Shown here one piece after another: positions 4,475-14,400 of a stretch of DNA of 35,672 nt. The DNA is from a virus. Every line of letters starts with the position of its first letter. The stretch's first letter is position 1. The stretch covers positions 1 to 35,672 of IMG/VR virus record IMGVR_UViG_3300042806_000042. One strand, 5' to 3'. The position numbers and the translations under genes are program-made. Below the pieces are notes generated by a model. It did not search any database and was not told where the DNA came from. It saw only the letters and a list, made by a program, of their open reading frames with translations.

Positions 4475-4924
4475 ATGAGTGATTTAGTAGCCTCGGCAAA
4501 GAGTGCCGCGCAGGGAATAAAAAGCGCGATAGCCGCAGGGAAAGAGATTGAAGCAGTAGTCAACGATATTCAAAAACTTGGGGTCGCAGAACTCCAAGCC
4601 AAGCAACAGTTCCAAAAAAAGCAACGGGTAGTTAAGGGCGATACCACCATCCTCACAGCCTTTGCGGAGTGGCGCAGACTTAAAGAAATCAAGGAAGCCG
4701 AGGACGACTTATTCCAGCAGCTTGTTGAGCGTTACGGCAAGGACAAGGCTGAGTTTGAGTGGAAGGACATCCAAGCCATCAAAGAGCGCCAGATAAAGGA
4801 AGTCAAGGACGGGCGTGACGAGATGGGGCGTGACCTAAAGAAACTCCGAGAACTCAAGGTTATGTGCTTCATAGCCTCGCTAATCATAGTCACCACTTAC
4901 TACATCTTCAAAGGACACCTGTAA
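4475..4924 (+). CDS. Coiled-coil protein with C-terminal membrane anchor
   Basis: 149 aa. Residues 1-125 are highly charged and helical (KEIEAVVNDIQ, RRLKEIKEAEDDLF, KDIQAIKERQIKEVKD), a likely coiled coil. A single transmembrane segment lies at about 129-145, followed by KGHL. The ATG directly follows the preceding TAA, and the stop TAA overlaps the holin ATG. Topology would put the coiled coil on one side of the inner membrane. By position it could be a holin partner, an antiholin or a spanin-like factor, but it lacks a signal peptide or lipobox, so I do not call it a spanin. Confidence 0.65.
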   Translation: MSDLVASAKSAAQGIKSAIAAGKEIEAVVNDIQKLGVAELQAKQQFQKKQRVVKGDTTILTAFAEWRRLKEIKEAEDDLFQQLVERYGKDKAEFEWKDIQAIKERQIKEVKDGRDEMGRDLKKLRELKVMCFIASLIIVTTYYIFKGHL

Positions 4925-13380: not shown

Positions 13381-13594
13381 TGCAGAACACCACCAGCAAG
13401 AGTTGGAGCAACAGGAGCAAGAGGACTCAATCTGGGAACGCGCAAGACTGATGGCTAAGAACCACGGCAAGATGATTGGGTGCGCTCAGACCATACGGGA
13501 CTCTAGCGGTGACGAGGACTATGTAAGAATTGCAGTAAAATACTTACTAGAAGCTTTGAAGGAACACGAAGATATTATGAGGAGATACGGATGA
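13373..13594 (+). CDS. Small hypothetical early protein
   Basis: 73 aa, helical and charged: a Gln/Glu-rich N-terminus (AEHHQQELEQQEQEDSIWER) and a C-terminal helix pair (YVRIAVKYLLEALKEHEDIM). No motif is recognised. The ATG overlaps the end of the acidic-protein gene, and its own stop overlaps the ATG of the annealing-protein gene (ATGA). Confidence 0.65.
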   Translation: MTDAEHHQQELEQQEQEDSIWERARLMAKNHGKMIGCAQTIRDSSGDEDYVRIAVKYLLEALKEHEDIMRRYG

Positions 13595-14142
13595 ACTCAG
13601 TAGATTTACTAAAGATTAACGTCAACGACCACACGGAGAAGAAGGGCAACCTTACATACCTGTCGTGGGCATGGGCTTGGCAAGAGGCAATCAAGGCAGA
13701 CCCGCAAGCAGAGTGGACTGTCAAGATGTTCGGCGAAACGTACGATAAACCGTACGTTAGCATCGGGGACACCAAGATGGTGTTCGTAGACGTAACCATG
13801 TTCGGCAAGACCCTGACCTGCCAACTGCCCGTCCTTGACCACAAGAACAAGGCTATCCCTAACCCAGACGCTTTTCAGGTCAACACGGCAATCATGCGTT
13901 GCCTGGCAAAGGGGATTGCAATGCATGGCCTAGGCTTATACATCTACGCAGGTGAGGACTTACCGGAAGATGGCTCAAAACCTGAGCCAGCAGAATTCGT
14001 CAAACTAATCGAGGAGAGTAAAAATGTCGCAGATTTACAATCAAATTGGAAAGCAGCGTACAGCGCGTCTCAATCAGATGCGGGGTTTATCGCAGCTATC
14101 ACGGTTGCCAAGGACAGAAGAAAAGCAGAACTGGCTGCTTGA
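13591..14142 (+). CDS. Sak/DUF1071-type single-strand annealing protein
   Basis: 183 aa. LTYLSWAWAWQEAIKADPQA (21-40), FVDVTMFGKT, LPVLDHKNKAIPNPDAF and VNTAIMRCLAKGIAMHGLGL (97-116) with YIYAGED are the signature of DUF1071/Sak annealing proteins. These bind single strands and promote RecA-independent annealing, usually paired with a 5' exonuclease. The YqaJ gene on the opposite strand at 7402 is the likely partner. The last 119 bases also encode a membrane protein in another frame (14024-14200). The C-terminal tail after about residue 145 is low in conserved blocks. Confidence 0.9.
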   Translation: MNSVDLLKINVNDHTEKKGNLTYLSWAWAWQEAIKADPQAEWTVKMFGETYDKPYVSIGDTKMVFVDVTMFGKTLTCQLPVLDHKNKAIPNPDAFQVNTAIMRCLAKGIAMHGLGLYIYAGEDLPEDGSKPEPAEFVKLIEESKNVADLQSNWKAAYSASQSDAGFIAAITVAKDRRKAELAA

Positions 14143-14200
14143 CACCCTAGCCTTTGTAGCGTGTTGCGTTACAGGCTACACGGTACTGGTGATGCTATGA
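14024..14200 (+). CDS. 58-aa membrane protein overlapping the annealing-protein gene in another frame
   Basis: The ATG at 14024 has GAGGAGAGTAAAA upstream (AGGAG, about seven bases before). The frame reads MSQIYNQIGKQRTARLNQMR, a polar stretch, then WLLDTLAFVACCVTGYTVLV with a final ML, which is one transmembrane segment. The stop overlaps the ATG of the next gene (ATGA at 14197). The basic N-terminus suggests it faces the cytoplasm. Two thirds of it lie inside the annealing-protein gene. An internal ATG at codon 19 is an alternative start. Confidence 0.55.
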   Translation: MSQIYNQIGKQRTARLNQMRGLSQLSRLPRTEEKQNWLLDTLAFVACCVTGYTVLVML

Positions 14201-14400
14201 ACCAAGAGCAAATCAACAGCCTTTCTGACAAGCGGCGGGTCTTAGACTTGTCGCCCCAAAGACCGTGGCAGGAGTTAGACATCCTAGAACTCAAGTCGAT
14301 TGCGGAGTCTTGCAATCTCTGGGGTTCGGATGTTTACAGCGACGTAGAGGAACTAGCGGCTGAGATTAACAAACGACTGAAAAGGAAGAACCATGTATGA
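14197..14400 (+). CDS. Small hypothetical early protein
   Basis: 67 aa from the ATG at 14197, which overlaps the stop of the 58-aa membrane protein. The sequence is polar and helical: LDLSPQRPWQELDILELKSI, ESCNLWGSDVYSDVEELAAE, ending in a basic tail (NKRLKRKNHV). An earlier in-frame ATG at 14161 lacks a ribosome site and lies in the preceding gene. No function recognised. Confidence 0.6.
   Translation: MNQEQINSLSDKRRVLDLSPQRPWQELDILELKSIAESCNLWGSDVYSDVEELAAEINKRLKRKNHV

Follow-up and report, generated by a model that had tools for sequence, protein, structure and literature searches.

Superinfection-exclusion and host-takeover membrane peptides of the T4 Imm type are tiny membrane proteins that are probably made early, and those known to us are all products of stand-alone genes, unlike the overlapped open-reading frame (ORF) described here. 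Well-supported overprinted genes are rarely documented in dsDNA tailed phages, and gene finders tend to drop such ORFs. The phi29 membrane proteins p1 and p16.7 anchor replication (PMC4974454). MS2 L and the embedded sgl genes of ssRNA phages are small ORFs that arose by overprinting and lie in another frame over the end of a longer gene (PMC7693330, PMC10688784). Here we analyze a window of 35,672 nucleotides (the whole stretch of viral DNA under study) in which a putative membrane-protein gene crosses the end of a gene for a Sak-family single-strand annealing protein; a literature search found no paper on such an overlap with Sak. The locus contains the following features.

13591 to 14142, plus strand: gene for a Sak-family single-strand annealing protein of 183 aa, host of the overlap (PF06378 SSAP_Sak, E 3.6e-45; phrog_659, E 4e-52)
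14012 to 14016, plus strand: AGGAG Shine-Dalgarno (SD) sequence of the overlapping ORF, 7 nt before the ATG at 14024 (from the sequence)
14024 to 14200, plus strand: overprinted gene for a predicted 58-aa membrane microprotein, C-tail-anchored, read in frame +1 with respect to the annealing gene (from comparative and simulation tests)
14024 to 14132, plus strand: N-terminal basic segment, overlapped by the annealing gene (residues 1-34 include 7 K/R and 2 D/E)
14135 to 14194, plus strand: single predicted transmembrane segment, about residues 38-57, mostly past the annealing-gene stop (from hydropathy, pN/pS and a model)
14188 to 14193, plus strand: GGTGAT, perhaps a weak ribosome-binding element of the next gene (suggested by sequence inspection)
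14197 to 14200, plus strand: ATGA, in which the stop of the membrane ORF overlaps the start of the next gene (from the sequence)
14197 to 14400, plus strand: next gene, 67 aa, no family, with its ATG at 14197; a position of variable cargo in relatives

The signals listed in a first-pass annotation of this DNA, namely a well-spaced AGGAG, an ATG, one hydrophobic segment, an ATGA link and a different frame over 119 nt, are all found in the sequence. The 58-codon ORF starts within the last 40 codons of the annealing gene, and its first two thirds or so lie inside that gene. The annealing protein is a member of the Sak family, scoring 153.7 bits against PF06378 where the cut-off is 22.3. The overlapping ORF encodes a microprotein without a recognized family: the 58-aa peptide has no Pfam match at the cut-off, only chance-level matches in PHROGs, no match among annotated phage proteins and, for five alleles, none in PADLOC at E<=1. 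A Pfam hit to PF09941 (DUF2173; E 0.13, below the cut-off) was rejected as chance. GTDB genomes scanned with a degenerate DNA pattern for the membrane segment gave no match. The terminase of the window is nearest to those of Methylophilales phage Venkman, a Manatee Spring phage and Pelagibacter phages; a host of Methylophilales type would be our guess. The window also encodes a C-5 cytosine DNA methylase (PF00145; 9775-11208, minus strand).

Viral contigs scanned with the annealing protein yielded 80 loci. Two groups of relatives, L002-L019 (93-100% identity) and L021-L038 (69-74%), keep the start and the open frame, and also the hydrophobic end wherever the contig reaches it. At 53-61% annealing-protein identity the loci lack the ORF, and the next gene, by inspection often a YqaJ-like exonuclease, begins at or near the end of the annealing gene. 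The gene ends that we read in Sak phages of Vibrio, Weissella, Methylophilales and Manatee Spring are also without the membrane ORF. The window has a YqaJ exonuclease gene of its own (PF09588; 7402-8007, minus strand), on the opposite strand to the annealing gene and separated from it by more than 5 kb, unlike many relatives without the membrane ORF, where a YqaJ-like gene lies directly 3' of the annealing gene. The lone close relative without the ORF is L020, in which a deletion takes out the annealing tail and the membrane ORF together and the annealing core (about residues 1-140) is joined in frame to the next gene (L020:5001-5645). This single contig is possibly a natural knock-out or possibly an assembly error. 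Because this genome lost tail and ORF together, the membrane gene may be dispensable.

The comparative set comprises 54 sequences (the window and 53 viral contigs), 45 of them distinct over the overlap and membrane segment; all ORF-bearing loci are metagenomic viral contigs, which come from many waters and some of which could be misassembled. Each of the 54 sequences has an open +1 frame, and so do 16 of 16 lineages, defined by less than 90% nucleotide identity in the overlap, down to 69% annealing-protein identity and also behind a second, different annealing core. The ATG is kept in 53 of 54, the exception being L215, which has TTG one codon later and an unchanged AGGAG. The first-pass annotation had named frame-breaking stops and loss of the hydrophobic segment as the changes that would count against the ORF, and neither is seen among the relatives that retain the annealing tail. 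When each tail was randomly recoded at synonymous sites, given its protein and codon usage, the probability of an open frame was 0.05-0.32 per lineage, values whose product overstates significance since lineages and pairs are related. In simulations along a FastTree tree only the annealing protein was constrained: over 3600 runs, a mean of about 3 and a maximum of 11 of 16 lineages were open, no run reached 16 of 16, and at most 1% of runs retained the ATG in at least 15 of 16 lineages. Relatives that have no membrane segment fall into 21 and 16 lineages, of which 1 and 0, respectively, are open in this frame, leaving 36 of 37 closed. The Asn before Val is encoded by AAT (or replaced by Asp GAT) in 15 of 16 lineages, though AAC is the commoner codon in these genes (107 versus 59).

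Selection on the frame points the same way. For the codons that follow the annealing stop, pN/pS in the ORF frame is 0.50 (bootstrap 0.34-0.66), versus 1.02 and 1.00 in the other two, and the mean Kyte-Doolittle value over 17 residues is 1.93-2.47 in all 37 distinct membrane segments. A purine-rich SD core is present in all lineages, although the annealing-protein residues that it encodes vary (EES, RGA, EGS, EQA, EEA). The synonymous constraint that the first-pass annotation had proposed as a check was seen in two of four sets: diversity at synonymous sites of the annealing gene is lower in the overlap than in every upstream window in the far core-A clade (0 of 105 windows as low) and in core B (0 of 93), while the signal is weak in pooled core A (ratio 0.96; 25 of 105) and reaches significance neither there nor in the close clade (8 of 105). 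In favor of a fortuitous ORF, the window by itself would, given the annealing protein, have this frame open with a probability of about 0.3. The 16 open lineages, the simulations, the frame-specific purifying selection and the conserved SD effectively refute that reading. The ORF is thus a real overprinted gene, on the same strand as its host, in another frame and under selection as a protein. It is almost certainly translated and selected, and this comparative evidence lends strong support to the earlier proposal that the ORF is a real gene for a translated membrane protein.

The product is very probably a single-pass inner-membrane protein with its N-terminus inside, a tail-anchored topology suggested by the basic leader and by the lack of positive charge after the helix. 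An AlphaFold model of the peptide gives a confident helix in the membrane segment (pLDDT about 90) and a weak helix in the leader (pLDDT about 60). The +1 frame is also open for a few codons 5' of the ATG, which would suit a +1 ribosomal frameshift that fused the annealing protein to the membrane helix and so produced a membrane-bound recombinase isoform. The sequences next to the ATG (aaaaATG, agcaATG, aacgATG, gaaaATG) include no conserved slippery site, it is the SD and ATG that are conserved instead, and we rejected such a fusion as extremely improbable.

The first-pass annotation had also held that the next gene, having no other good start, is coupled to the membrane ORF. The ATGA layout is consistent with coupling, but the GGTGAT element is similar to the 3' portion of an extended SD, and the next gene of several relatives is preceded by an AGGAGG of its own. 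The same ATGA junction precedes many unrelated next genes. What follows the membrane ORF in relatives is either cargo that varies and is attached through ATGA, or a common 'MYES' gene, often with its own AGGAGG. Unrelated small genes between the membrane ORF and the conserved 'MYES' gene mark a cargo-insertion site, and the cargo genes of L025, L029 and L030 have signal-peptide-like starts. Since ATGA stands before many cargo genes that lack a strong SD, one could envision an inert peptide whose open frame merely delivers ribosomes to the next gene. This is very improbable: several lineages (among them L022, L028, L032, L033, L215, L217, L218, L222, L260 and L265) keep the frame and the hydrophobic helix despite an AGGAGG-type SD in front of the next gene, and hydrophobicity, which coupling does not need, is present in 37 of 37 distinct sequences.

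The two parts of the peptide behave differently. The leader, its first 34 or so residues, is basic in every lineage examined, and its sequence is set by the annealing tail and unlike between lineages. The helix sequences are diverse (FVACCVTGY, FTGCITMLY, FLAVCVLGY, FAATIVLGF, FPAFLGMLY) and are hydrophobic and of helix length in all. It is the membrane helix, not the leader, that carries the protein-level selection signal. Membrane DNA is 100% identical between L008 and L220, whose tails are 61% identical; L223 and L262 have tails that are 98% identical and membrane DNA that is 43% identical. To judge from these comparisons, the tail half and the membrane half reassort, and the helix is exchanged as alleles.

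An alignment-based search for loci with the peptide failed, no stretch being conserved enough. The degenerate DNA pattern for the membrane segment uncovered loci at the same genomic position in which another protein lies upstream of this tail and ORF. That second-core protein belongs to no Pfam family and matches phrog_11717, and a PDB sequence search with it returned chance-level matches only. Its AlphaFold model (pLDDT 84) has 80-alpha Sak as its top two Foldseek matches (E 2.3e-3 and 1.4e-2), and in VIA-align the top rows are human RAD52, yeast Mgm101 and Sak, with Z of 7.4-8.2 over 80-104 residues; these fold scores are middling, and the top rows are mostly of one functional class. Because the structural matches are to Sak, RAD52 and Mgm101, the second core is most likely another annealing protein with a Rad52 fold. 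Thus the phrog_11717-like proteins at L214, L221 and related loci appear to be Rad52-fold proteins that stand in for Sak at the same locus. A scan with the second core gave about 20 further loci with the membrane ORF and many without, and queries with the junction pattern and the tail for more cores found two ORF-bearing cores only, plus two distant tails without the ORF. The tail and ORF would thus move as a unit between different annealing cores.

Of the roles proposed in the first-pass annotation, a membrane partner or regulator of the recombinase or an exclusion or defence peptide, this movement bears on the first. Since a change of core leaves the ORF with its tail, a partner of the annealing core itself seems less likely, though the peptide may yet be a partner of the tail. 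A broader proposal, the main rival to the reading that we favor, is a membrane tether or regulator of replication and recombination, in which the machinery would be held at the membrane through contacts of the basic cytoplasmic leader with DNA or with the annealing tail. The ORF is always encoded with an annealing tail, its leader is always basic, and phi29 p1 and p16.7 provide a precedent (PMC4974454). Persistence of the ORF behind a replaced core, an unconserved and interchangeable leader, and a selection signal that lies in the membrane segment instead of the leader argue the other way, and we consider a tether rather unlikely.

The origin of the overprint may be visible in a distant Sak-like gene (L329:554-694). 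Its tail has the motif STNVEELK, in which the Asn-Val codons contain a +1-frame ATG, and the +1 frame there has no SD, no helix and an early stop. This gene likely represents a pre-overprint state. Since the frame is closed in nearly all lineages without the membrane segment, and in this outgroup lacks an SD and stops early, the overprinted gene appears younger and narrower in distribution than its host annealing gene.

On balance, we favor an overprinted phage gene that encodes an early membrane-acting factor, with exclusion or host takeover as its presumed function. Ribosomes would initiate at the SD and ATG inside annealing-tail codons and read the +1 frame to yield a basic cytoplasmic leader followed by one C-terminal membrane helix, and termination at ATGA would help start the next gene. 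The overlapped leader would need openness and basic charge only, leaving the helix as the selected part. The peptide would then act early, through contacts of the helix with a membrane target, in superinfection exclusion or another host-takeover role. This role is a tentative guess, to which we give somewhat less than even weight, made from the small size of the peptide and its exchangeable helix alleles; allele exchange at a membrane helix would be expected of an exclusion determinant in an arms race. Alternatively, the helices may be diverse because few demands are made on their sequence and because phage genomes are ordinarily mosaic. If the peptide does act in exclusion or takeover, the recombinase C-terminal tail and the peptide could form a cassette on the same DNA, in which recombination at the tail spreads helix alleles among phages with recombination machinery, a scheme that we regard as possible but doubtful.

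A role in lysis, as a modulator or as a single-gene-lysis-like peptide, would fit the layout, which is that of MS2 L: an overlapping frame across a gene end, a soluble N-terminal part and a C-terminal membrane domain (PMC7693330, PMC10688784). However, MS2 L-like genes are the sole lysis function of phages without an endolysin, and here a lysozyme gene (Phage_lysozyme, PF00959; 5424-5903; E 1.1e-36) lies about 8 kb away, and the block of small genes that holds the ORF contains the annealing gene, not the lysozyme gene. Lysis, like coupling alone, is an unlikely role, and we judge it improbable. Just 5' of the lysozyme gene and a predicted membrane protein, the window encodes a 149-aa protein with a hydrophobic C-terminal end (4475-4924, plus strand).

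With its many lineages, an outgroup that apparently predates the overprint, alleles exchanged inside the overlapping gene and two recombinase cores between which it is swapped, this locus is a good natural case for the birth and carriage of a new membrane protein on an existing gene. Should the peptide prove to act in exclusion, phage recombination modules would be tied directly to competition between phages.

Among the systems described, MS2 L and the sgl proteins share with the window ORF an SD, a predicted membrane helix at the C-terminal end of a soluble part, and overlap with a larger gene. Unlike them, the window ORF belongs to a dsDNA tailed phage with a lysozyme and overlaps a recombinase gene; the likeness is one of layout, and we claim no sequence relation. 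The phi29 proteins p1 and p16.7 are similarly phage membrane proteins made with replication functions, and a cytoplasm-facing segment is predicted here too; they are tied to terminal-protein replication (PMC4974454) and stand in another gene context, and the comparison does not extend to homology. The host gene belongs to the same PF06378 family as 80-alpha Sak and has the same general fold as the second core. In size, predicted membrane location and probable early expression, the window ORF resembles the T4 Imm-type peptides.
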